Virus record (IMG/VR): IMGVR_UViG_3300020474_000004
Span: 16,921 to 80,920 of that record
Length of the DNA: 64,000 bases
DNA from: a virus
Direction: 5' to 3' (one strand)
Part shown: positions 3,001 to 63,828 of the stretch, in pieces
Layout: every line of letters begins with the position of its first letter
How positions within the stretch are numbered: position 1 is the first letter of the stretch
Made by a program: the position numbers and the translations under genes
The notes under the pieces: generated by a model
What the model saw: the letters and a program-made list of their open reading frames with translations, nothing else
Told to the model about the DNA's origin: nothing
Databases searched by the model: none

Positions 3001-6000
3001 CTTTTCTTTGTGGGGGTTGGAAGTGGTAGCAACCATAGTTTTAAAACAAATTATGAAAACTTAACTGTTGAATCTTCAAGGCATAATGTCACGGTCACCA
3101 CGGACCAAGACCACTTATTACATGAAGGTCATAATGTATTCATAGATGTAAATCCTCAAACAACATTAAATTACAAAATTAAATTTAATGATTTAAATCG
3201 AAGAGTTCTTGTAGGCATTAAAACTTTTTCTAATGTCGGAGTTAATACGAACAATAATACTATTACCATACAAAATCACAATTATGAAAGTGGAGATAAG
3301 GTAGTATATTCATCGGCAGATCCTTGCGAAGGATTAGAAAATAATAAAATTTATTACATTGTGAAAATTGATGCAGATAAGTTTAATTTATCAAATACTC
3401 TTTATGGTTCAACATTATCTAATCCTAATATAGTAGGAATTGCTAGCACTAGTCTTACTTTTGGAGAAATAGGATTAGTCAATCCGATAATTTCTGCCTA
3501 TAGAGATTCTACTTTAGAATTTGATATTTCTGATACTTCTTTGGCATATGAAAAAGAATCTACATTATATTCCGCATTTAAACTTAATTTTTATATTGAT
3601 AAAAATTATACAAAATTATGGGAGTCTGATTTATCTTCGTCAGTATTTAATGTAACTAGAGAAAACAAGTCCGGATTATCTACTACATCGAAAGTTTCGG
3701 TATCTATTGGAAAAACAACACCATCTATTCTGTATTATAGATTAGATCCTGTTACTAATAATAACCTTCCAAAAATAAAATCTGAAGTAATGGTTGATGA
3801 TGAAATTATTGGAAGTGGTAGTATTGAGGTAAGAGATAGTGTTTATAGTGGACTTAGAAAAGTATCCACTGCTGGAACCAATTTCTTTAATTTCTCTATA
3901 AACGAAATCCCAGAAAATAATTCTTATGTGTCCACTTCATCTTCAATAACGTATACTACAGACTGTATTCATACAAATGGACCAATATCTACGGTAGAAA
4001 TAGTAAACCCAGGAAGAAATTATGATTCATTACCAGATATTGCTTCCATAAATTCTAATAACGGATCAAGAGCTGAACTTTTATGTCTTAGCGAAAATAT
4101 TGGAAAAATTGAAAATGTTTCTATAAAAGATATTGGATATGATTATCCAAGTGATAAAACACTAAAACCAAGTGCAATTCTTCCTCAAATTATTAAAGTT
4201 GACTCCTCTGCAATAATTAACACTATTTCCGTATCTTCAAATGCAAAGGGTTATACTTCGGCACCAAAACTAGTAACATTTGATGGAAAAACTAATAAGA
4301 TAGTATCTGACTTGGATTTAAAGTATTCTATTAAGGATAATGAAGTAATCATTTTACAGAATACAAGAGGAATGAATAATTCTACTCCTACAATTATTCC
4401 GGTTGAAAATAATAATGGAGTCGGTATTAATAATGTTGAATTTGACGATTCATCTAAGGAAGTGACCATAAGATTATCATCTGGATTCTCATCATTGAAT
4501 GACTTCCCATTTGAAGTTGGTGGTAAAGTTTTTGTTGAAAATGTAAGTGTAGGAATAAATTCAACTGCGAAAGGATTTAATTCAAAGAACTATGGATATA
4601 AGTTATTCACTTTAACTTCAGTTACTCCAAATATTGGAGGTATCGGAACTGTTTCATATAATCTTTCTGAGGATTTAAATGATGGTGAAATTCCAGGAAA
4701 GGCGGATCTCATCAGATCTTCTGGAATTATTACTCCTGAGAAATATTTTCCAACTTTTGTTATTGATTTAGCAACAAAGGACTTTATTCCTGGCGAAAAA
4801 ATTGTTTCATCTACTAAAACAGGAACAGTTCAAAGTTGGGATAGTACCACTAAAACCCTGAGAATTCTATCTCAAGATACCTTTAAAGTTGGTGAAAAAA
4901 TAAGAGGATTAACCTCAGACTCATTAGCAACAAACTCTGAGGTAAAATCATATGAAACTTATTTTAATGTCGATACAAAAACAGATATATTTGAAGGTAA
5001 TCAGACTATTTCTGGATATTTAAATAACAATCTTCAGAGAGTTCAGGATAATCACTATTATCAAAATTTCTCATATTCAATTAAATCTAGGATTCCACTA
5101 GCAGAATGGGATGATATTGTTTCAAGCACCAATCATTCTATAGGATTTAAAAAGTTTGGGGATCTTCAAATTGAATCTAGGAATGATGAACAACCAGCTA
5201 ATATTGGATTGACAACAGCACTTACCGATATGACAATTGATTATGGAATATCGGAGTATATTGATACAAATTGCGTTTTTGATTTTGATTTGGGAAGAGA
5301 GAATAATATTAATTTTGATGAAACCACTATTTTGTCAGATGAAATTGTACTTAAGAGTAAAGTTCTTTCCGATTTTAGTGAGTCCGTTGGAAATAGAGTT
5401 GTATCAATAGATGATGTGAGTCCTCAATTTAATAATACACCAAGAGCGACTGCTTTTGTTGCTTTAGACTCCTTTAATTTAAGTGATTTTAGAAGTAAAA
5501 AGTATTTTATTTATCTTAAAGACACTAGATTTGTAAAGGAAAGGCAATTTGAGATTGTAAGTCTTATTCATGATAGTGCTTCAAATGGATATCTAAATCA
5601 GTATGCAAAGACAGACTCTGTAAGAGATTTGGGTTCTTTTGATTTTGCAATCTCTGGATCTGTAGGTGAATTTAGATTTTTCCCAATAAATTCAAGAGTA
5701 AATGATTACGATGTATGTGCATTATCTTTCAACTTGGATGACAATCTACTGGGAATTGGAACTACATCTATTGGCGAATCTATCATACAAAGTAATAGTG
5801 TTTCAGTTCCATCCACACCAACAAACATTGTAAGCATTGGAAATACATATCACTCACTTAAGGTTTTAGTAACCATAGCACCTGATGTTGAGAATGTATC
5901 ATTTGGATCTACTGCTACATTTAACTCAAGAGAATTTGAATATCAAGAATTGAATATTTGTCATGATGGAACTGATGTTTCATTAATAGAGTTTGGTAAA

Positions 6001-19533: not shown

Positions 19534-20376
19534 ATGGCAAAACCAGCAAGTAGATCAGAATTAATAGATTACTGTAAGAGGCAACTGGGAGCTCCTGTAT
19601 TGGAGATCAACGTTGCCGATGAGCAGCTTGATGACTTGGTTGATGATGCCTTACAGGTATTCCAAGAACGTGATTATGATGGAACGACAAATACATACTT
19701 GAAGTATAAGATCACTCAAGATGATATTGATAGGGGAAGAGGTAGAGGTGGATCCAATCCAATTGGAATTGTAACAACAACAGCTACCTCAACGGTTGGT
19801 GTTTCTACTACATTTTCATTTGAAGAAAATAGTAATTATCTTCAAGTTCCTCCTGAAGTATTGGGAGTTACAAAGATATTCCATTTTAGTGGTGCTAATA
19901 CCACAGCAAATAATATGTTTAGTATTAAATATCAATTATTCTTAAATGATATTTACTACTTCGGATCGACTGAAATACTCACCTATGCAATGACAAAAAG
20001 ATATCTTGAAGATATTGATTTTGCTTTGACTACACAAAAACAGATTAGATTTAATATTAGACAAGATAGACTTTATTTGGATATAGACTGGGCTAGTGTT
20101 GATGTAGATGATTATCTTGTAATCGATTGCTATAGACTCATTGACCCTAATGATTTTCCGAGAGTATATAATGATGCTTTTTTAAAGCGTTATTTGACTG
20201 CACTTATTAAAAGGCAATGGGGTCAAAATTTAATTAAGTTTCAAGGAGTCAAACTACCAGGTGGAGTTGAGTTAAATGGTAGACAAATATATGATGACGC
20301 AGAAAGAGAATTGGATAAGATTAAAGAGGTAATGTCGAATACCTATGAACTACCACCTCTTGACATGATAGGATAA
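19534..20376 (+). CDS. 13: Neck protein gp13
   Basis: Homologue of T4 gp13, which with gp14 forms the neck that closes the filled head and joins it to the tail. The N-terminal signature matches the family: a helix with QLGAPVLEINVADEQLDDL followed by a second helix ending QERDYDG (T4: RLGAPIINVELTPDQIYD ... EYHFDG). 280 residues against 309 in T4. A Thr/Ser-rich insert near residues 70-105 is low complexity. The gene ends in taATG, sharing one base with gp14, so the two neck proteins are probably translationally coupled. Confidence 0.88.
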   Translation: MAKPASRSELIDYCKRQLGAPVLEINVADEQLDDLVDDALQVFQERDYDGTTNTYLKYKITQDDIDRGRGRGGSNPIGIVTTTATSTVGVSTTFSFEENSNYLQVPPEVLGVTKIFHFSGANTTANNMFSIKYQLFLNDIYYFGSTEILTYAMTKRYLEDIDFALTTQKQIRFNIRQDRLYLDIDWASVDVDDYLVIDCYRLIDPNDFPRVYNDAFLKRYLTALIKRQWGQNLIKFQGVKLPGGVELNGRQIYDDAERELDKIKEVMSNTYELPPLDMIG

Positions 20377-21836
20377 TGGTACTTAATCCTTTTTTCTTAC
20401 AAGGTTCTCATGGAGAACAAAGTCTTGTACAAGATATCATAAATGAGCAACTTAAAATATATGGGGTAGAAGTACATTATATGCCCCGCAAATATCTTAC
20501 GGAGTCTAGTGTAATAAGAGAGGTAATTCAATCTTCTTTCGATCAAGCATATCCTATAGAAGCATACGTTAATAATTTTGACGGATATGGAGATAATACT
20601 ACAATATTATCTAAATTTGGAATTCAACAAACTCAGGAAATAAGTTTAATAATTTCTAAGGAAAGATTTGAAACATATATTTCAACATTGATGAGTCTTG
20701 AAGAAAATATGAAGTTAACTACAAGACCAAAAGAGGGTGATCTAATTTACTTTCCACTTGGTGATAGGTTATTCGAAATAAAATTTGTAGAACACGAAAA
20801 ACCATTCTATCAACTGAGAAAAAATTATGTTTATGAACTAACTTGCGAGTTGTTCAGATATGAAGATGAGGTTATTGATACTGGTAATGATGAAATAGAT
20901 GATGTATTAATTGGTGGAGAATCTGATGGTTTGACTGATGATAATATTTCTACAATTATTGGACCGACTCAGACACTTACTATGATTGGAGTTGGAGTTA
21001 CAGCAACTGCTATTGCTGGAAATCCTCAGAATGGTGGAGTTAGAAGTTTTGCTATATCAAATAGAGGAGCTGGATATCTTTCCATCCCATCTGTCACACT
21101 CTCCAATGTTCCTTCTGGTGGAATAATTGGAATAGGGTCAGTGACCAAAATGATTGGTGGAATTAATTTTTGCAATCTTAATGCAAATCCAGGAGCACAA
21201 TCAGTTCAACAATTAGATGTTGTAAATCCAGGTCGTGGATATGTTGAACCACCTAAGGTCAAATTTAAAAAGACTAGTGGAAGAACAGGAACTGGAGCAG
21301 CTGCTACTTCAATCATTGGAGATGGTGTTGTTGGAATTATAACTGTTACAGATGGTGGTGGGGGATATACTGTTCCACCAGAAATTACTTTTAGTAATGA
21401 AAACTTCTTAAGTGGAGTGACTACTGTATCAGCTGCCGCAACAGCAATAGTTAGTGCTGCGGGCACTATTACTGAAATAAGATTTATGGAAGCAGGTGCT
21501 GGATATAGTGCGGCACCAACAATAACCATTGGAAATCCTCATATTGGATCAACTGGAGAGTTTATATTTAATGAAACTATCACTGGTTCTACTAGTGGAA
21601 CAACAGCAAGAGTACGTATCTGGACAAATTCAACCAATGTTCTTGAAGTAGGAAATGTTGATGGTACATTTATTGTGGGAGAAACTATAGTTGGATCGGT
21701 ATCAAGTGCATCTCATATTCTAAGAGTTATCGACAAAGAACCAGATAATGATCCATATGCTGATAATTTTGATATAGAAACGGAAGCAGATAAGATAATT
21801 GACTTCTCCGAACGTAATCCCTTTGGAATTCCCTAA
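20376..21836 (+). CDS. 14: Neck protein gp14 with repetitive C-terminal extension
   Basis: Homologue of T4 gp14, partner of gp13 in the neck. The first ~165 residues (NPFFLQGSHGEQSLVQDI, later RKYLTESSVIREV, then FEIKFVEHEKPFYQL) form the family core, and position after gp13 supports the call. T4 gp14 has 256 residues; this protein has 486. Residues ~205-390 are four to five copies of the beta repeat [VI]-x-x-x-G-x-GY-x-x-x-P-x-[VI]-x-[FI], the same repeat found in the baseplate giants and in gp8, followed by a short ETITGSTSGTTARV-type module. The repeats probably decorate the neck, like fibres; that is inference. Confidence 0.85.
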   Translation: MVLNPFFLQGSHGEQSLVQDIINEQLKIYGVEVHYMPRKYLTESSVIREVIQSSFDQAYPIEAYVNNFDGYGDNTTILSKFGIQQTQEISLIISKERFETYISTLMSLEENMKLTTRPKEGDLIYFPLGDRLFEIKFVEHEKPFYQLRKNYVYELTCELFRYEDEVIDTGNDEIDDVLIGGESDGLTDDNISTIIGPTQTLTMIGVGVTATAIAGNPQNGGVRSFAISNRGAGYLSIPSVTLSNVPSGGIIGIGSVTKMIGGINFCNLNANPGAQSVQQLDVVNPGRGYVEPPKVKFKKTSGRTGTGAAATSIIGDGVVGIITVTDGGGGYTVPPEITFSNENFLSGVTTVSAAATAIVSAAGTITEIRFMEAGAGYSAAPTITIGNPHIGSTGEFIFNETITGSTSGTTARVRIWTNSTNVLEVGNVDGTFIVGETIVGSVSSASHILRVIDKEPDNDPYADNFDIETEADKIIDFSERNPFGIP

Positions 21837-24238: not shown

Positions 24239-27200
24239 ATGCCCGCACCTGTAATTCAGTTTAAACGTGGTATTCTTGCCAATCTACCCGCACTGAGGGC
24301 AGGTGAACCAGGTTTTACCACAGATACTAGCGATTTATATGTTGGTATTGACTCTACCACAAGTAATAATCAATTTGTAGGATCAGGAAGATTTTGGTCC
24401 ACTGGATCTGCTACTGTAGGTAGTGGAGTCAAACTTGTCGAAGGCACTAATAATGGAACTAGTGCAATAACAATCAAGGCACCAAATAGTCTTGGTTCTG
24501 ATGTTACATTCACCTTTCCGGGATCTGATGGAACTAACGGTCAGGTTCTATCAACGAATGGTTCTGGGACATTATCTTTTATTGATTCTGCCGCAACGCT
24601 AAACATTGTAGGTGATTCAGGATCTGATGCTGTTGCACTTCTTTCAGATAACCTGACCTTTAGTGGAACTTCAAACGAAGTTGTTACTGCAGTCACGAAT
24701 AATACGATAACCATAAGTCTGCCTGATGACGTAACAATCGGTCAAGATTTAACTGTTACTAGAGATTTATCAGTTAATAGAAATGTCGCTATTACTGGAA
24801 ACACAGTATTAAGTAGCACTGGTTCTATTCAGATTCCAAAAGGAACAACTGCTCAGAGATTAAGCGGTGTTCTTGGTCAAATCAGATATAACACAACCTT
24901 ATCACAGTTTGAGGGATATGGTGCTGGTAACGCATGGGGATCTCTTGGTGGCGTAAAAGACGTAGATGGGGATACATTTATCAGAGCAGAATCTGCTGCT
25001 GGACAGGATGAAGATTCGCTTGAGTTCTTAACGGGAAGCAGCGTTAGAGTTTCGATTGACTCTGTTGGTAACGTTGGTGTTGGAACTACCGGTGGTCCCA
25101 GTGCAGATTCTACAAACGATACAGTGCTTAATGTTGGTATCGTTACTGCAAACAACTATTATGGAACTGGTGGAGATCTCAAGTTGGGATCTGCTGGTGA
25201 CGGAAGTTTAACTACATCTGGAGCACTTAATACGTTTACAACGGCATCAACTATTGTTAATAGTATTGATGATCTGAATGAAGTAGCATTCAATATCATT
25301 AAGAATACTGCTGTAACAGATGTTGGATTTACAGCAGACTCTACTTCAGGTGCTGCAACACTTACAGTTACTTTAACTATCACCTCTTCTGGCAACGCAA
25401 ACCAGTTTATTATCAACTGGGGTGACGGAAGTGCATTAGAAACAACCACAGACTCTACACCAACACACAACTATACTGATTCTGGTGGTGGTACTTATAA
25501 TGTAACAGTCATAGCAAGGAACTCTTCTGGTGTAGGTGCAGGTCACTCCCAATCTTTGACAAAGAGTAATTTTATTACAGTATTCACTCCTGCTCCTGTA
25601 ATGGGATTCAGTTTGTTCAGGGCATCCTCTGGCGGATCAGCACTGAGTGGAAATGACCTCTATGTCATCGATAATGGCGGTGGTCCTAGTAACTATCATA
25701 CTCTGCATCTTGACAACACTACACAAAATGCAACGGGTGTTGGTGCAACATTCACAATCAACTGGGGAGATGGATCTTCTGTACAAACTGTAACCACTGA
25801 TAATGCTGCTGGTGGCGCAGGTGGATCTGCTGGAAGACTTTCTCACCAGTGGGCAGATGGTACAAGCAGTGGCACTAGCACAGATAACGTCACTCTTACT
25901 ATTACTAACCATACAACAACTGATCCATCTGAGATTCCAAAGGCCACATCGACAGCGATCAAGGTTTACCAAGATGATGTTGCTGCTCCTGCTAATCTTG
26001 GAACTAAGACACTTTCGAACGTTTCCAGTCAAGGAACTTCGCCAAGACTCGCATCTGGATTTTCTGCTAACGGGGTAAGTGGACTCAACGCTGGTGATTC
26101 TGTCACAAGAGTCTCTAGTGGAACAGCAACTGCTGGTCCTATAACAACCTTTGCTTATGATGGAAATAACGGAACACTCTCTGCTAATGTAACTGGATCC
26201 ACTGATGGTAGCAGGGGACTTACTTCTGGTGATGACACTGGAAACTATACAAGTCTTCAGATCACCGATGAAAGTGATTATCAACTCTTAGATTCTTCTG
26301 GTTCAACAACATCTTTCGCAAACAGCATTTACTATCCCGGACTTTACAAAGGATTTAAGGCAAGAGTTTCTAAATCTGTTGCTTCTCTATCGACCGGTGC
26401 AAACAGTATGCAACTGGTTCATAGCACTCAGGGTTCAACAAACGTTGTCAAGTTTGTAAAGGACAACCTAACTGCAAGTCCAAGCATCTCTGCAACAGGA
26501 AGTCTTGCTCAGGGAACCGCAGGAACATTTAGATATATCTCTGGTATTCCTTACTACAACTCTGGTTCTCCTACTTTAACTCTCTCTGGAGTTACTATTT
26601 CTAATTTAGTTGGTCAGTGTCATACTAACCAGTCAAATATTGTTGAGGTAGATGATGGAAGCAACCAAGAGGGAACATCATCAAACGCAATTACTAACAC
26701 AGATTATACATATGCCCAGATTGATGGGTCTACAACCATGTTAAGTAGTGGTGTGCCACTCGCCAATACGGGAACTTCCTCTGCATATGCAATTGGTAAT
26801 CTCACAGTTCCAATTACTTCTTCAAGTGTCAGAACTATTAGTAGAGTCAAGGCTCGTGCTCGTAATGTAAATGGTGTTGGTTCTTACGGGTCTGACATTA
26901 CTACAAACGTTCAGGTTCATACAGCATCACAAAGCGGAATTAGTGAGATCGCGATTGCAGTTTCTGATTCTCTGGGTGATGGATTTGATGATGATGGAGT
27001 AAGAATCTATGACTTTAAGGATGCTGCTGCCGATAATCCATCATTTAACGGAAGCACAAACTTCTATACAAATCAACCATATACTGAGTCATTAGCTTCT
27101 GGAACTGTTGGCGTGAAAGAAGCAATCCTCAGACTTGGAGTTATCAAGTTTGACCAGACAGATTTCTCTTCTGGATATCTCCCTGCAGGTCCAGATAGAA

Positions 27201-27589
27201 GTTCTGCTCCTGCGAAACAATATTTCACGTTTGCCTTCCGACGAACACCGCTTGCTAACTTCAATATAAATATTACATCAAGTGGGATAACAGGTCTCTG
27301 GATAGCAGCACCTGGAACTCAGATAGATAGTACTAGTGGTATCAATGGTTGGTTAAAGGCGGATACTCAATACGCTGGATCCGGAATTCCTGGAAGCGGC
27401 ACAGGTGGTAATGGTAGTGATGGATGTGCTTCAACTGGTTCTGATAGAATTCAAGCAGATACTGCATTAAGTGGAAGTTATACAATGACTCTTGGATCAG
27501 AAAACCTCAGTAATGCTACTGGTAATGTTGTTTTGATAAGAATTGCATTAGATTCTGGTCAATCCGTAACAGCTCTTTCCGTATCCTAA
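24239..27589 (+). CDS. Tail-fibre-like protein with PKD-like domains
   Basis: 1116 residues. The N-terminus (IQFKRGILANLPALRAGEPG then FTTDTSDLYVG) is the module found at the start of many phage fibres and in Mtd-type tropism proteins, probably for attachment. A repeat region with RDLSVNRNVAITGN-type beta turns follows. Two PKD-like Ig domains are visible by their N-W-G-D-G-S cores at about residues 400 and 507. The C-terminal third is Ser/Gly-rich with no recognised enzyme motif. Role: probably host-surface binding. Virion location is inferred from family and neighbours. No late octamer exact match upstream, only the ACTAAATA variant. Confidence 0.78.
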   Translation: MPAPVIQFKRGILANLPALRAGEPGFTTDTSDLYVGIDSTTSNNQFVGSGRFWSTGSATVGSGVKLVEGTNNGTSAITIKAPNSLGSDVTFTFPGSDGTNGQVLSTNGSGTLSFIDSAATLNIVGDSGSDAVALLSDNLTFSGTSNEVVTAVTNNTITISLPDDVTIGQDLTVTRDLSVNRNVAITGNTVLSSTGSIQIPKGTTAQRLSGVLGQIRYNTTLSQFEGYGAGNAWGSLGGVKDVDGDTFIRAESAAGQDEDSLEFLTGSSVRVSIDSVGNVGVGTTGGPSADSTNDTVLNVGIVTANNYYGTGGDLKLGSAGDGSLTTSGALNTFTTASTIVNSIDDLNEVAFNIIKNTAVTDVGFTADSTSGAATLTVTLTITSSGNANQFIINWGDGSALETTTDSTPTHNYTDSGGGTYNVTVIARNSSGVGAGHSQSLTKSNFITVFTPAPVMGFSLFRASSGGSALSGNDLYVIDNGGGPSNYHTLHLDNTTQNATGVGATFTINWGDGSSVQTVTTDNAAGGAGGSAGRLSHQWADGTSSGTSTDNVTLTITNHTTTDPSEIPKATSTAIKVYQDDVAAPANLGTKTLSNVSSQGTSPRLASGFSANGVSGLNAGDSVTRVSSGTATAGPITTFAYDGNNGTLSANVTGSTDGSRGLTSGDDTGNYTSLQITDESDYQLLDSSGSTTSFANSIYYPGLYKGFKARVSKSVASLSTGANSMQLVHSTQGSTNVVKFVKDNLTASPSISATGSLAQGTAGTFRYISGIPYYNSGSPTLTLSGVTISNLVGQCHTNQSNIVEVDDGSNQEGTSSNAITNTDYTYAQIDGSTTMLSSGVPLANTGTSSAYAIGNLTVPITSSSVRTISRVKARARNVNGVGSYGSDITTNVQVHTASQSGISEIAIAVSDSLGDGFDDDGVRIYDFKDAAADNPSFNGSTNFYTNQPYTESLASGTVGVKEAILRLGVIKFDQTDFSSGYLPAGPDRSSAPAKQYFTFAFRRTPLANFNINITSSGITGLWIAAPGTQIDSTSGINGWLKADTQYAGSGIPGSGTGGNGSDGCASTGSDRIQADTALSGSYTMTLGSENLSNATGNVVLIRIALDSGQSVTALSVS

Positions 27590-27602: not shown

Positions 27603-30600
27603 ATGGCAATTTCAGAAGCACAAAAGGTTGACTTTCTTTGGAAGAAACTTGGTTACGGAGTTTCCAAGACCGATACTAATGCCAACAAGAAGGCAACTAA
27701 TGAATCAATAGCAAGTCCTCTACTTCTAAGAGGAAATAATGTATGGTCTCAGGCAGACCTAATCCCTGGCACAATGCCAGCATCTTCTGCTGGTGTAGTT
27801 ACTGTATATCCAACGACTGCACCAGATGAAACTACAGCAGATGCATCGGCATCATCTAATAGAACTTGGAAAACTGGATTAACTGATTGGATACCACCAG
27901 AGATTGGATCAACTTATCTTGTAAAGGTATATGTTCATACTGCTGGCGATGCTGCTAATGCTGCTGGTAGTGGAACTCAGGTATTTGGTGCTGGTTCTGG
28001 TAACAATGACGAATGGTTCTTTGACTATCAATCGGGCACTTTACACTTTATTGGAACAAATCTTCCAAACGGTGTAAATTTTTCTGGAAAGAGTGTTTAC
28101 GTAAGTGGTGCAAGATATACCGGTATTAAAGGTGTATCTGTTCCTGGATCTACCGCGACATTTAGTGATGTTAATGCAACTGGTATTGGTACATTCCAAT
28201 CTGGTGGTAGATTAGATGACGTTCAGATTGGTAGAACTGCAGCTAATGAGATTGATACAACGGCAGGAAATCTTATCTTAGATTCTGCTGGTGGAACAGT
28301 TCAGATTACTGACAATGCATCTGTTACCGGTAATACAACACTTAGTGGAACACTAGATGTAGATGGGCAGACTGATTTAGATGTATTAAACGTTGCTGAG
28401 ACCGCCACATTTAGTGCTGCAATCGACGCAAATGGGTCTTTGGATGTCGATGGTCATACAGAACTTGATGACGTTAATATCGCTGGTATAGCAACCGCTA
28501 CGGCAGTTCATTTAGGTGCTGAGGGATCGGCACTTCGTCTTACCACTAATACAATTTCTGGTCCTGCGACTATTACGATTGACCCTGCTGGTGTCGGAGA
28601 TAACACAGGAACACTCGTTGTTGCTGGTAATCTCCAAGTTGACGGAACACAAACTACCATCAACTCAACGACAGTCAATATAGACGATAAAAACATTCAG
28701 GTTGCCACTGGTGCTGCTAATGACGCAGCTGCTGATGGTGCTGGTATTACGGTTGATTCTGGTGAGGGAGACAAGACGTTCCAGTTTGAAGCAACCGGTG
28801 ATAACTGGGGTGCATCAGAGAATTTAAATCTTGCCTCTGGTAAAGCATATAAGATTAATAACACAAGCGTTCTTAACGCTACAACTCTTGGTGGAGCAGT
28901 TGTAAACTCTTCACTTACAAGTGTTGGAACTCTTACTGGTCTTACGGTTTCAGGTAATGCATCTGTTGAGGGTAATGTAGATCTTGGTAACGCTACCTCG
29001 GATACAATCACTGCAACTGGTAGATTTGACAGTGATTTAGTTCCATCTTCAGATGATGCAAGAGACTTAGGAACTTCTGCATTAAAGTGGAAAGATATTT
29101 ACATTGATGGTGTTGCATATGTTGATGATATTCACGCTGCAGATTGTGATATTAATGGTGGTAGCATCGATGGTGCTGCGATTGGTGCTAACTCTGCCTC
29201 GACTGGTGCTTTTACAAGTGTCACTGCAAGTGGTAATGCTACGGTAACAGGCAATATAGATGTAGATGGACATACAAATCTCGATAACGTAAGTATTGCA
29301 GGTCTCACAACTCATGCTGCTGGAGTAACATTCTCTGGTGCAATTGATGCTAACTCTACTGCTACATTTGCTACAGCAGTTATAGAAGATCTCACCAACA
29401 ATCGTGTAGTTATTGCTGGTTCTGGTGGAGAACTCGAAGATAGTGCAAATCTTACCTTTGATGGGTCAACTCTTAATGTTGTCGGACTTGCAGATCTTGA
29501 TAATGTAAATGTATCGAGTGCTGCAACTGTATCAACACTAATTGATGTTCAGGGTTATATAAAGGGATATAAGTTCCTCTCTGCTCCTTACGGAAGCACA
29601 ACAACAATTACTGTTACTGTTGCGAGTAAAGATGCAACTCACAGATACCAAGGAACTGGTAGTGGATCTGGATATTTACTAGACGGAGTTCAATCTCCAA
29701 TTCTCACGTTAACTCCAGGTAGAACTTACAGATTCGATACATCACATACAAGTAACGGTGGTCACCCATTCCTCTTCTATATGGAAGCGGATAAGACTAC
29801 TCAGTATACTACAAACGTTACCACAAACGGCACAGCAGGTAATGCTGGAGCATACACGCAGATTGTAGTCGGAGATGAAACTCCATCGGTTCTCCACTAT
29901 CAGTGCTCTGCTCATGGTTACATGGGTAACGCTGTTGTTACCAACTCTAATGCAATTAACTCAAACTATGCCGCAACTCTTCGCGGTGGATTGAGTGTTA
30001 CTGGAACAACAACGCTTGGAACTCTCGCATTCTCTGCTGGTGGTTCTTCGGTAACTGGTGTTCTTGATGAAGATAATTTTGCAAGCAACAGCAATACTAA
30101 ACTCGCGACTCAACAATCAATCAAGGCATATGTTGATTCTCAAATCACTGGATCTGATTTAGATTTCCAAGGCGATAGTGGTGGCGCACTTTCTATCGAT
30201 CTTGATAGTGAAACTCTGACGATTGCTGGAACAGCAAATGAGATTGTAACATCTGGATCTGGAAATACATTGACTATTAGTCTTCCAACCACAGTTACCA
30301 ATGATAATTTCCAAACCACTGCTGCTGGTAGAGTTACTACTGGTCTTATTGCGTCCGAAAACAATACAGATGGATTAACATTAGCAACTGGTGGTGGCAA
30401 AAAGTGGTTAAAAGGAACTGCTAATGCACAAGTTGAACTTTTTCATAATAATAATAAAAAATTTGAAACTACTTCATCCGGTGTTATCGTTACTGGCATT
30501 TCATCTGCAACAAGTTTAAGATTAGGCACTAGCACATTAGTAAGTGGTGTTCTTGATGAGGACAACTTGGCAAGTGACAGTGCCACTTCGCTTGCAACTC

Positions 30601-31598
30601 AACAGTCTATCAAGGCATATGTTGATGGTCAAATAACTGGTGGTACTGCACAAGCTGCTAGTGTTGCTGTTCAATCAACAAGCACCAACTCGATTCACTA
30701 TTTGACATTTGTCGATTCAAACAACGGCAGTGCAACTCAGGAATCACTTCTCACTGATGGTGGTATTCAATACAATCCTAGTTCCAATCTTTTAAATGCA
30801 ACTGGTACAGTTGCTGCTGGAACTTTAAGTCTTGGATCGGGAACTGCTACTGCGATTCTTGATGAAGATAATATGTCGTCAAATAGTGCAACAGCACTTG
30901 CGACACAACAATCAATCAAGGCATATGTTGATGCTGAGGTTGGTGCAGTTGATACCACAACATCAACCGCAGCAGATTCTGGAACAGGGTCATTCGCAAC
31001 TTCTCAAACTCTGACCATTTCTGGTACGGCAAATGAAGTTGAAACTTCTGTATCTAATCAAACCTTTACGATTGGACTTCCTAATACAGTTAATGTAACA
31101 ACTGCGATTGATGTTCCAACGATTGAAGCAACTAACCTCAAAGCAAGAGATGGCACAGCAGCAATCACAATCGCAAATAGCACTGGTGCTGTTGAAACTG
31201 CCGCTAATCTGACTGTTCAGGGTAATCTGATTGTTAATGGATCTACCACACAGGTTGATTCTCAAGCAGTCACTATTGAAGACCAACTCATTGAACTGGG
31301 TATGGTTAATGGTGCTGCTCCTACATCTGATCTCAACAGAGATGTCGGTGTTATATTCAACTGGCACGATGGTAGTAACGCATTTAAGGCAGGTGTTTAC
31401 TTTGATGATAGCACCGGTCGTATTGTTGCAGCAAAGAAAGTTTCTGAGTCTGGTGGAGTTCTCACCAATAATGAAGGATCAGGATTTGAGGCAGCAGAAT
31501 ACTATATCAGCGGATGCACTGGAACTCAAAGAATCTTTGGTTGCAATAGTGGAGAAATCATCCTGGAGAACACAACAATCGATGCTGGAGCGTTCTGA
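27603..31598 (+). CDS. Tail-fibre-like protein with embedded cupredoxin-like domain
   Basis: 1331 residues. After an N-terminal domain (~190 residues) come beta-helix-like repeats (GNTTLSGTLDVDGQTDLD type). Residues ~660-785 form a cupredoxin-like domain: GGHPFLFY with His721, then YQCSAHGYMG with Cys768, His771 and Met774, the four ligand types and the C-x2-H-x2-M spacing of amicyanin-like type 1 copper sites. Three copies of a DEDN-x5-S-x-T/S-x-LATQQSIKAYVD repeat follow (about 30060, 30550, 30856). The C-terminal ~150 residues begin QVDSQAVTIEDQLIELG, and the protein ends IDAGAF. Likely a virion fibre; copper binding is unproven. Confidence 0.78.
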   Translation: MAISEAQKVDFLWKKLGYGVSKTDTNANKKATNESIASPLLLRGNNVWSQADLIPGTMPASSAGVVTVYPTTAPDETTADASASSNRTWKTGLTDWIPPEIGSTYLVKVYVHTAGDAANAAGSGTQVFGAGSGNNDEWFFDYQSGTLHFIGTNLPNGVNFSGKSVYVSGARYTGIKGVSVPGSTATFSDVNATGIGTFQSGGRLDDVQIGRTAANEIDTTAGNLILDSAGGTVQITDNASVTGNTTLSGTLDVDGQTDLDVLNVAETATFSAAIDANGSLDVDGHTELDDVNIAGIATATAVHLGAEGSALRLTTNTISGPATITIDPAGVGDNTGTLVVAGNLQVDGTQTTINSTTVNIDDKNIQVATGAANDAAADGAGITVDSGEGDKTFQFEATGDNWGASENLNLASGKAYKINNTSVLNATTLGGAVVNSSLTSVGTLTGLTVSGNASVEGNVDLGNATSDTITATGRFDSDLVPSSDDARDLGTSALKWKDIYIDGVAYVDDIHAADCDINGGSIDGAAIGANSASTGAFTSVTASGNATVTGNIDVDGHTNLDNVSIAGLTTHAAGVTFSGAIDANSTATFATAVIEDLTNNRVVIAGSGGELEDSANLTFDGSTLNVVGLADLDNVNVSSAATVSTLIDVQGYIKGYKFLSAPYGSTTTITVTVASKDATHRYQGTGSGSGYLLDGVQSPILTLTPGRTYRFDTSHTSNGGHPFLFYMEADKTTQYTTNVTTNGTAGNAGAYTQIVVGDETPSVLHYQCSAHGYMGNAVVTNSNAINSNYAATLRGGLSVTGTTTLGTLAFSAGGSSVTGVLDEDNFASNSNTKLATQQSIKAYVDSQITGSDLDFQGDSGGALSIDLDSETLTIAGTANEIVTSGSGNTLTISLPTTVTNDNFQTTAAGRVTTGLIASENNTDGLTLATGGGKKWLKGTANAQVELFHNNNKKFETTSSGVIVTGISSATSLRLGTSTLVSGVLDEDNLASDSATSLATQQSIKAYVDGQITGGTAQAASVAVQSTSTNSIHYLTFVDSNNGSATQESLLTDGGIQYNPSSNLLNATGTVAAGTLSLGSGTATAILDEDNMSSNSATALATQQSIKAYVDAEVGAVDTTTSTAADSGTGSFATSQTLTISGTANEVETSVSNQTFTIGLPNTVNVTTAIDVPTIEATNLKARDGTAAITIANSTGAVETAANLTVQGNLIVNGSTTQVDSQAVTIEDQLIELGMVNGAAPTSDLNRDVGVIFNWHDGSNAFKAGVYFDDSTGRIVAAKKVSESGGVLTNNEGSGFEAAEYYISGCTGTQRIFGCNSGEIILENTTIDAGAF
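30064..30945 (+). repeat. Three DEDN...QQSIKAYVD coding repeats
   Basis: Three copies of a ~85-base coding repeat, starting near 30064, 30553 and 30859, encode D-E-D-N-x-x-S-x-S-x-T/A-x-LATQQSIKAYVD. A fourth, diverged copy (VVDEDNMSS...) lies near 33775-33855 in the next giant fibre gene. Confidence 0.7.
30282..30409 (+). repeat. Copy 1 of 128-base repeat shared by two fibre genes
   Basis: Matches 38729-38856 at 118 of 128 bases by my count, without gaps. Encodes TTVTNDNFQTTAAGRV and the following GLIAS to GGGKKW segment. Confidence 0.85.
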
Positions 31599-45905: not shown

Positions 45906-47570
45906 ATGTCCAAATTATTTGGGTTCTCTATTGAGGATACTGAACCACTCTCACCATCAGTAGTCTCCCCCGTCCCTCAGTCAAATGAGGACGGGGTTGA
46001 CCACTATATGAGTAGTGGTTTTTTTGGTTCCTACGTAGATATTGAAGGCGTATATAAAACTGAATTTGATCTCATCAAGAGATATCGTGAGATGGCGCTT
46101 CATCCAGAGTGTGATAGTGCGATTGAAGATATTGTAAACGAGGCAATCGTTTCTGATAGTAACGATACTCCTGTTGAGATTGAACTCTCAAACCTTAATG
46201 CTAGCGATGGTATTAAGAAATCTATTAGACAAGAATTTAAGCACATCATAGATTTACTGGATTTTAATAAGAAAGCACATGAAATCTATAGGAATTGGTA
46301 CATTGATGGTAGACTTTATTATCATAAAATAATCGATCTAAAGAAACCTGAAGATGGTATTCAGGAACTTCGTTATATTGACGCAATGAAAATGCGTTAT
46401 GTAAGGAAGCAAAAGAAGAATGAAAAGAAAGAACTAAATCGTCTCAATCCATTGAAGCAAGATCCAATGGATTATGATTTCCCAGAATTGGAAGAGTTTT
46501 TTATCTATAATCCAAAAGCGGGAATGGGTGGCAACCCAATGCAATCAAGTGCGAGTCAAGGTATTAAAATGACTAAAGACTCAGTAGCTTATTGTACATC
46601 TGGTTTAGTAGATAGAAATAAAGGATCAACGCTTTCATATCTTCATAAAGCAATCAAGTCTCTCAATCAACTGAGAATGATTGAGGATAGTCTCGTCATT
46701 TATAGACTTTCAAGAGCACCAGAACGTCGTATTTTCTATATTGATGTTGGCAATCTTCCAAAAATTAAAGCAGAACAGTATCTGCGTGACGTTATGATGA
46801 GATATCGTAACAAGTTAGTATACGATGCGTCCACAGGAGAGATTCGTGATGACAAAAAGTACATGGCTATGCTTGAGGACTTCTGGTTGCCCAGACGTGA
46901 AGGAGGCAGAGGAACTGAAATTTCTACTCTTCCTGGCGGTCAAAACCTGGGAGAAATCACTGACATTGAGTATTTTAAGAAGAAACTTTACAGGTCCCTT
47001 AATGTTCCGCCGTCACGTATGGACGGAGAAGGTGGATTTAATCTGGGTAGATCATCTGAAATACTTAGGGATGAACTGAAATTCACAAAGTTCGTGGGTC
47101 GTTTAAGAAAGAGATTCTCTGCAATGTTTAATGACATGCTTAGAACTCAATTACTTCTTAAGAATGTTATCACTCCTGAAGATTGGGAATTAATGAGTGA
47201 GCATATTCAATATGATTTCCTATATGATAATCATTTCTCCGAATTAAAAGAAGCAGAATTAATGAATGAGAGATTATCTCTTGTTGAAACTGCTCAACCA
47301 TATGTGGGTAAATACTACTCACAGGACTATGTAAGGCGCAAGATATTGCGTCAAACTGATATGGAAATTCTTGAGCAAGATAAACTTATCGAAGCAGAAA
47401 TAAAGTCAGGTATTATTCCCGATCCAGCAACAATTGACCCTGCAACTGGTCAACCACTAGATGCAGGGCAAAATCCTGCTTCAATGGACCTTGGAGCACC
47501 GGTTATGGAACCTGAGATTGATGCTTCTTCTGCTGAACCAATTGAGATGCCCAAGGGTGGCGAGATATAA
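45906..47570 (+). CDS. 20: Portal vertex protein gp20
   Basis: Homologue of T4 gp20, the dodecameric portal through which DNA is packaged and to which the neck attaches; also the classic cyanomyovirus marker gene. The central core matches T4 closely: RAPERRIFYIDVGNLPKIKA, KLVYDASTGEIRDD, MLEDFWLPRREG, TEISTLPGGQNLGEITDIEY and the turn LNVPPSRM. 554 residues against 524. The N-terminal ~40 residues and the Pro/Ala-rich C-terminal 50 are unlike T4. Located in the canonical order between tube and core genes. Confidence 0.97.
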   Translation: MSKLFGFSIEDTEPLSPSVVSPVPQSNEDGVDHYMSSGFFGSYVDIEGVYKTEFDLIKRYREMALHPECDSAIEDIVNEAIVSDSNDTPVEIELSNLNASDGIKKSIRQEFKHIIDLLDFNKKAHEIYRNWYIDGRLYYHKIIDLKKPEDGIQELRYIDAMKMRYVRKQKKNEKKELNRLNPLKQDPMDYDFPELEEFFIYNPKAGMGGNPMQSSASQGIKMTKDSVAYCTSGLVDRNKGSTLSYLHKAIKSLNQLRMIEDSLVIYRLSRAPERRIFYIDVGNLPKIKAEQYLRDVMMRYRNKLVYDASTGEIRDDKKYMAMLEDFWLPRREGGRGTEISTLPGGQNLGEITDIEYFKKKLYRSLNVPPSRMDGEGGFNLGRSSEILRDELKFTKFVGRLRKRFSAMFNDMLRTQLLLKNVITPEDWELMSEHIQYDFLYDNHFSELKEAELMNERLSLVETAQPYVGKYYSQDYVRRKILRQTDMEILEQDKLIEAEIKSGIIPDPATIDPATGQPLDAGQNPASMDLGAPVMEPEIDASSAEPIEMPKGGEI

Positions 47571-62928: not shown

Positions 62929-63580
62929 TAAAACTATTTCTGTCCTGAAGAACTTCTCTTCTATTAATCAGTCTATTCTTTTTAAGGAAGGTAGCAAACT
63001 TCGCACTATCAGTGTGATGAAAAACATTCTTGCAGAAGCAACAGTTACTGAAGAGTTCTCTCGTGACTTTGGAATCTATGATCTCAATCAGTTTCTAAAT
63101 GGATTGAGTCTGCACTCTAGTCCAGAACTTGATTTTGCGAATGATGGATACGTTGTTATTCGTGAAGGTCGTTCTCGATCCAAGTATTTCTTTGCTGATC
63201 CTAATGTCATTGTGACTCCTCCAGAGAAAGTAATTTCTCTCCCCACAGAGGATGTCTGCTTTGAACTTTCTACATTAGTTCTGGATAAACTCCTGAAAGC
63301 AGCAGCAGTATATCAACTGCCTGATATTTGTGCTGTTGGTGAGAATGGTGTTGTGAAACTCGTTGTTCGAGACCGTAAGAATGATACCTCTAATGCTCAC
63401 GAAGAAGTTGTAGGTGAAACTGACAAAGTGTTTTCCTTTAACTTTAAGGTTGAGAATATCAAGGTTCTTCCTGGAACTTATGATGTAGTTGTTTCACAAA
63501 AACTTCTATCACGATTCACCAGTAAAAATCATGATTTAACTTATTACATTGCGTTGGAACCTGATTCTACATTTGGATGA
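62915..63580 (+). CDS. 45: DNA sliding clamp gp45
   Basis: Homologue of T4 gp45, the trimeric processivity clamp, also the mobile activator of late transcription with gp55. 221 residues against 228. Matches: MKLSDKTISVLKNFSSIN (T4 MKLSKDTTALLKNFATIN), FGIYDLNQFLNGLSL (T4 VAIYDLNGFLGILSL), and LPGTYDVVVSQK plus YYIALEPDSTFG at the end (T4 YVVALEADSTHDF). I chose ATG 62915 because T4 starts at the same residue; an in-frame ATG at 62897 would add six residues. Clamp-loader genes are not in the window. Confidence 0.94.
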   Translation: MKLSDKTISVLKNFSSINQSILFKEGSKLRTISVMKNILAEATVTEEFSRDFGIYDLNQFLNGLSLHSSPELDFANDGYVVIREGRSRSKYFFADPNVIVTPPEKVISLPTEDVCFELSTLVLDKLLKAAAVYQLPDICAVGENGVVKLVVRDRKNDTSNAHEEVVGETDKVFSFNFKVENIKVLPGTYDVVVSQKLLSRFTSKNHDLTYYIALEPDSTFG

Positions 63581-63585
63581 GATGA

Positions 63586-63828
63586 GTGAAAACACTTTAT
63601 ATCCATGATCTTGGAAATGGTTGCTGTATAACACATGATGGTTATATTCAACTAGGATATATGTGCCATAGTTTGGAAAAGCATAAGGAGTTAAACCCAA
63701 CAATAAACTGGGTTGTGACTTACTGGTTGCCTGACGTATTCAAGGACAGATATCCAAGAGCCACAATGCAGTCGCATCAACGGATATCTGACGGTAAACT
63801 AGGTTGTGAGAAACTAAAAGACAAATGA
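63586..63828 (+). CDS. Small protein of unknown function
   Basis: 80 residues from GTG at 63586; an in-frame stop at 63583 leaves no earlier start. Contains NGCCITHDGYIQLGYMCHSL, an aromatic middle (INWVVTYWLPDVFKDRYP) and a polar end. Several Cys and His residues. No family recognised. It lies five bases behind gp45 and shares an ATGA overlap with the next gene, so it belongs to the replication operon. Confidence 0.65.
   Translation: MKTLYIHDLGNGCCITHDGYIQLGYMCHSLEKHKELNPTINWVVTYWLPDVFKDRYPRATMQSHQRISDGKLGCEKLKDK

Follow-up and report, generated by a model that had tools for sequence, protein, structure and literature searches.

A cupredoxin-like domain with a conserved type 1 copper ligand set suggests copper sites in the tail fibres and baseplates of marine phages

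Cupredoxins share a common ligand layout, in which one His stands just before a strand, Cys lies at the end of a strand, and His and Met follow in the next loop. Rusticyanin has the ligand set His plus Cys-His-Met, and the ligand loop of amicyanin has the spacing C-x2-H-x2-M. CuA and nitrosocyanin sites have ligand sets unlike H-C-H-M. The plastocyanin genes encoded by cyanophages are known as separate soluble electron carriers, not as fibre domains. As for metals in phage tails, iron is known in fibres from the HxH sites of T4 gp37, and Trojan-horse iron in the tails of marine phages has been put forward as a hypothesis (PMC11705849). We have found no published description of a cupredoxin or blue copper domain in a phage tail, fibre or virion in the open-access literature, bioRxiv excluded. 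Of the papers retrieved, one on a cyanophage, copper-binding and a structural protein (PMC8115048) deals with a viral nirK gene rather than the present domain, and the cryo-EM paper on podovirus P-SCSP1u mentions copper for grids only, with the distal fibres unresolved. What appears to be new here is a cupredoxin-like family and its phage-tail context, while metal in phage fibres, in the form of iron, is already known.

The domain lies in a tail-fibre gene of a virus (Table 1). The window, that is, the whole 64-kb stretch of DNA that was analysed, is a portion of an 80,920-base virus record. Its portal protein (45906-47570) is 83–85% identical to the portals of Synechococcus phages SynMITS9220M01, S-SM2 and Bellamy, and the genes around the fibre encode tail sheath, sheath stabilizer, head closure, terminase, scaffold and baseplate wedge proteins. 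Based on these two observations, the source virus is a T4-like cyanomyovirus. The fibre itself, which matches PHROG tail fibre families, has no match to a Pfam or NCBIfam family. The upstream fibre (24239-27589, 1116 aa) begins with a domain like Mtd_N, the N terminus of the major tropism determinant (Pfam E 7.8e-9), and also has a PKD-like domain slightly under the Pfam cut-off. At 20376-21836, a head-closure (Hc2-like) protein of 486 aa has a C-terminal extension that resembles baseplate and tail-fibre families, not neck proteins.

Table 1 Positions of the tail-fibre gene, the cupredoxin-like domain, its putative ligands and related features in the window.
Feature	Position	Strand	Remarks
Tail-fibre gene, carrier of the domain	27603..31598	+	1331 aa ORF; PHROG tail fiber protein phrog_30742, E 2.8e-53
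Cupredoxin-like domain, residues 665-782	29595..29948	+	~118 aa, all beta; boundaries by homology; AlphaFold2 pLDDT 97; best 50 Foldseek matches all cupredoxins
His680, outside the canonical site	29640..29642	+	Kept in 142/143 of the close fibre subfamily; varies in the broad alignment
His721, proposed first metal ligand	29763..29765	+	In GGHPFLFY, in the loop preceding strand FLFY; invariant in 66 diverse homologues
Cys768, proposed thiolate ligand	29904..29906	+	In QCSAHGYMG, at the end of strand VLHYQC; invariant in 66 diverse homologues
His771, putative ligand within the C-x2-H-x2-M loop	29913..29915	+	In QCSAHGYMG; invariant in 66 diverse homologues
Met774, proposed axial ligand	29922..29924	+	In QCSAHGYMG; invariant in 66 diverse homologues
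Site-less cupredoxin-like domain, weak candidate	3478..3741	+	In a gp7-like 3280-aa protein; 0/4 ligands; 12-19 bits only; not relied on

The initial annotation had pointed to H721, C768, H771 and M774 in the motifs GGHPFLFY and QCSAHGYMG, within a beta domain of ~120 residues, and had taken them for an amicyanin-like copper site. All four residues are indeed at these places in the 1331-aa ORF, and homology gives a domain of 118 residues, all beta. The pattern C-x2-H-x2-M has a single occurrence among the plus-strand ORFs of the window. AlphaFold2 modelled residues 651-791 with a pLDDT of 88.4 and a pTM of 0.82, and these values are 97.1 and 0.90 for residues 665-782 with a broader alignment. 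In the predicted secondary structure, H721 stands two residues ahead of strand FLFY, C768 closes strand VLHYQC, and the loop after it holds H771 and M774. The reading had been staked on the four ligands clustering in a predicted structure; the fold predicted is that of a cupredoxin, and as judged by secondary structure the ligands take cupredoxin places.

We have compared both models with the PDB by Foldseek, and the best 50 matches listed are cupredoxin-fold copper proteins without exception. Rusticyanin (PDB 1rcy, 1e30) is at the top in both searches (E 1.6e-4 and 9.4e-4), and multicopper oxidases, laccases, copper nitrite reductase, pseudoazurins and a purple cupredoxin are also among them. 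TM-scores to known cupredoxins are modest (0.44–0.55, rmsd ~6 Å). Rusticyanin shares the cupredoxin sandwich with the phage domain, but the identity is 10–14%, its N-terminal part and ligand loop are longer, and it is a free periplasmic electron carrier. As to the amicyanin-like label, the loop spacing stands, but the nearest folds are those of rusticyanin, laccase, nitrite reductase and pseudoazurin, while amicyanin itself is outside the best 50; a pseudoazurin into which an amicyanin loop has been engineered ranks 30th for the 665-782 model. In addition, the residue following His721 is Pro, where amicyanin and the plastocyanins have Asn, and the phage domain, unlike amicyanin, is not a partner of methylamine dehydrogenase.

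At the sequence level, a profile search of the PDB gave copper nitrite reductase (E 0.0014), multicopper oxidase (E 0.0022) and pseudoazurin (E 0.024). When aligned by hhalign with 28 cyanobacterial plastocyanins, the family profile reached E 7e-5 as a single comparison, with a probability of 35%, and the four ligands aligned with the plastocyanin ligands; another alignment gave E 0.0095. The profile-profile score is 21–26, versus 10–15 for reversed or column-shuffled controls. Masking the ligand columns reduces the alignment to a short segment within the domain's first half, so part of the sequence signal comes from the ligands themselves. The fold search should be much less dependent on them than this plastocyanin comparison. 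The phage domain also differs from plastocyanin in its loop, which is two residues shorter, and it falls outside PF00127: neither the window domain nor the virus record matches this Copper-bind family at the curated cut-off. Other Pfam cupredoxin families are sub-threshold for the window domain. Likewise, the domain has no match at the curated cut-off to PF25489 (At5g54830-like domain), which has weak matches to five A1 members and Syn9 gp9. Searches of the PDB and Pfam with the single sequence of the window domain gave nothing usable, and the top PDB match among them, RNA polymerase II chain 1qyp, is a chance hit (E 0.78).

Conservation bears directly on the four positions. Among 66 diverse homologues with 32–93% identity to the window domain, the only invariant columns are H721, P761, C768, H771 and M774, and the probability that four named positions all lie by chance within a set of five invariant columns in a domain of 118 is ~6.5e-7 if columns are treated as independent. 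The four are also without variation among 85 matches in the first set of homologues. We have further searched with a ligand-blind HMM, in which the four ligand columns were masked from the profile, and obtained 302 unique domains. All four ligands are present in 295 of them, comprising 294 with H, C, H and M in register and one loop-insertion variant (L148) with C-x4-H-x2-M. Three more are truncated where their contigs stop. The remaining four are complete but have each lost three or all four ligands jointly, namely those in P-HM2 gp7, S-MbCM6 gp7, P-SSM7 GC399 and PSS2. In the first three of these proteins, the site-less copy adjoins an intact one. For the 193 domains found via ligand-free peptides (189 HCHM, the loop-insertion variant, and three at contig ends), ligand loss among complete domains is 0/190. 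This "all four or almost none" pattern in the sequences is the prediction of a putative metal centre. Homologues that freely lose Cys768 or His721, which had been named as the finding to look for against the site, are seen neither in the 66-homologue alignment nor among the 302 domains.

The synonymous codons at ligand sites are mixed (CAT 169 and CAC 141; TGT 167 and TGC 141; CAT 194 and CAC 114), so the conservation of the ligands is at the protein level. Strong purifying selection acts on the four-ligand set. Other accounts of the pattern have been considered and rejected. A chance motif is ruled out by the conservation, and a site kept in close relatives only is ruled out by testing down to ~30% identity. 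The count is not inflated by a motif-biased search, given the ligand-blind HMM and the domains found through ligand-free peptides. A disulphide role is ruled out by the presence of one Cys only in the domain, and a CuA or red-copper (nitrosocyanin) site by the different ligand set. Overall, the domain has the sequence and predicted fold expected of a cupredoxin with the type 1 ligand set, and the earlier assignment of such a set to a cupredoxin-like domain is borne out by the predicted fold, the ligand positions and the conservation.

It had been supposed that similar domains may occur in other marine phage fibres. They are found in the fibres of cyanomyoviruses, pelagiphages and Methylophilales phages, and the supposition understated their spread, which extends to gp9 and the baseplate. 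By tblastn, the domain is in 39 isolate records, all marine, from phages of Synechococcus, Prochlorococcus, Pelagibacter and Methylophilales and from single-cell marine viruses. One scan of IMG/VR gave 552 relatives and two others gave >590, and through iterated profile searches and two further seeds the family reaches down to ~25–30% identity. In ~330 cyanophage records the module forms a C-terminal domain of gp9, which connects the tail fibres to the baseplate wedge. The window domain alone matches PHROG 677 (the gp9 family) over the last ~94 family positions (E 5.6e-9). In Syn9 gp9 (L381, 565-1785), the T4 gp9/10 N-terminal Pfam domain covers residues 3-138 and the cupredoxin module covers ~309-403; the gp9 records L381, L382 and L383 all end in the module, and homology to T4 gp9 is confined to the N-terminal part. 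We have found no solved structure that contains the domain: Syn9 gp9 resembles T4 gp9/gp10 at the N terminus only, and the P-SCSP2 protein described below matches nothing.

Other carriers are gp7 and GC399-type baseplate proteins. Among podoviruses, the module is in fibres of Pelagibacter phages (Baldr, HTVC028P) and in a protein of the Prochlorococcus podovirus P-SCSP2. In the siphovirus PSS2 it is a stand-alone gene of 112 aa behind the tape measure gene (L389 986-1309; record 63255-63593), with 3/4 ligands lost. Along the domain and on both sides of it, a sister fibre (L003) shares >95% identity with the window fibre; farther on, it has a second copy where the window has a different segment, so the module moves as a cassette. 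The near-identical sister fibres L003, L004 and L006 have this second domain at locus 4904-5290, where a cassette exchange is seen. Cellular relatives are secreted Bacteroidota proteins, notably a 152-aa protein of Marinifilum with a signal-peptide- and lipobox-like start, which hhalign relates to the phage profile with a probability of 98%. The only Pfam family above cut-off for this relative is PF25489 (E 7e-7). In Marinifilum flexuosum (L168, 5878-6336), this putative lipoprotein consists of the single domain, and its neighbours are a very large iron-sulphur oxidoreductase-like gene and a dihydroorotate-dehydrogenase-like gene (names assigned by eye).

Because the four ligands have been kept in hundreds of fibre and baseplate relatives, these results suggest that fibres and baseplates of ocean phages carry copper sites, and this reading is well supported by sequence and predicted fold. 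We consider it very probable that the domain binds a metal, and probable that the metal is copper. The explanation as a whole, which we hold to be moderately likely, is that a modular, metal-rigidified cupredoxin decorates the tails of marine phages. Residues 665-782 would be a cupredoxin module with the complete type-1-copper ligand set and an amicyanin-length loop, inserted like a cassette into the shaft of a cyanomyovirus fibre that is presumably a trimer. Folding of the fibre would take place in the host cytoplasm, where the thiol would be reduced and the site would be either vacant or filled by another metal, and upon release the site would capture copper with high affinity. The metal would then link His721 to the Cys-His-Met loop and give a rigid, protease-resistant beta-sandwich. 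Such a rigid module would decorate the fibres and, in related phages, would be built as a domain into gp9, the fibre connector, and into other baseplate proteins. It would resemble T4 gp37 and other HxH phage fibres in having metal ions built into the tail fibre, but T4 gp37 is a trimeric fibre that holds octahedral iron by HxH motifs, whereas the phage domain is globular with a predicted mononuclear H-C-H-M site per subunit.

The best surviving alternative is that zinc or another metal forms a purely structural centre in a cupredoxin-derived fold, with copper uninvolved. Free copper is scarce in the cytoplasm, the place of synthesis of phage proteins; azurin produced in E. coli picks up zinc, and ligand conservation is equally expected for any essential metal. 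In the copper-poor cytoplasm, zinc loading or an empty site could occur during synthesis. However, Met774 is the most conserved column (61/61 in the non-redundant family set), thioether ligands typify copper sites rather than zinc sites, and the nearest folds in the Foldseek search are all copper proteins. Copper is favoured over zinc by the methionine, which is invariant, and by the fold, which is that of copper proteins. We regard the zinc alternative as unlikely.

Decidedly unlikely, in our judgement, is a role in host recognition, in which the fibre would offer an outer-membrane receptor either copper itself or a surface that depends on copper, as a copper analogue of the iron Trojan horse. 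The published iron sites of T4 fibres and the marine Trojan-horse proposal mentioned above are precedents for it, and among the isolate records matched the domain is confined to marine phages. Nevertheless, the module is also in gp9 and in gp7/GC399-type baseplate proteins, which are not receptor-binding tips, it is conserved across phages with very different hosts, and its position along fibres is varied, with 41 of the 267 domains in complete ORFs ending ≤25 aa from the C terminus.

A true blue-copper centre on the virion that transfers electrons, does other redox chemistry or removes reactive oxygen is more improbable still. The complete H-C-H-M set is that of electron-transfer cupredoxins and is shared by the secreted Bacteroidota lipoprotein relative, but tail fibres have no known redox partner or path for electrons, and the module is reused in unrelated structural proteins. 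That the residues are conserved for folding only, in a metal-free domain, is scarcely credible: nothing direct favours it beyond the point that invariance alone names no metal, while the four residues are kept or lost as a set, are seemingly not needed for folding since site-less copies exist, and, as a lone Cys, two His and a Met invariant to ~30% identity, are hard to explain without a metal.

Returning to the metal-rigidified module, a main role that is structural or adhesive rather than redox is favoured by its presence in gp9, other baseplate proteins and fibres, at all positions along fibres, though we put the chances of such a role at about even. A further speculation is that marine T4-like phages and some podoviruses bear dozens of blue-copper centres per virion in the fibres and the fibre-baseplate joint, that occupancy or redox state controls deployment or attachment, and that seawater copper thereby modulates infection; this too we consider decidedly unlikely.

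Should copper be bound, a large fraction of the phages most abundant in the ocean would bear mononuclear copper sites in the infection apparatus, including the domain of gp9, which in T4 attaches the long tail fibres, and copper would join iron as a metal built into phage tails. A domain that is now labelled just tail fibre or hypothetical protein (PHROG 30742, 677, 693) would gain a name that states its function, and annotators would be warned against calling such matches copper-enzyme auxiliary genes. The effect on dissolved copper should be negligible: by a rough estimate, ~1e10 virions in each litre, at a few dozen sites apiece, would hold <1 pM, versus copper at roughly nM.

Two minor observations may be added. 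The giant viruses LCPAC/LCMAC have "beta-sandwich proteins" (BFVD A0A481Z6J5, A0A481YY19 and others) of similar predicted fold, with a TM-score of ~0.6–0.7. His680 lies in an H-R-Y motif, which is shared with the Marinifilum protein and not with the wider family, and it may mark a second site or have a structural role.
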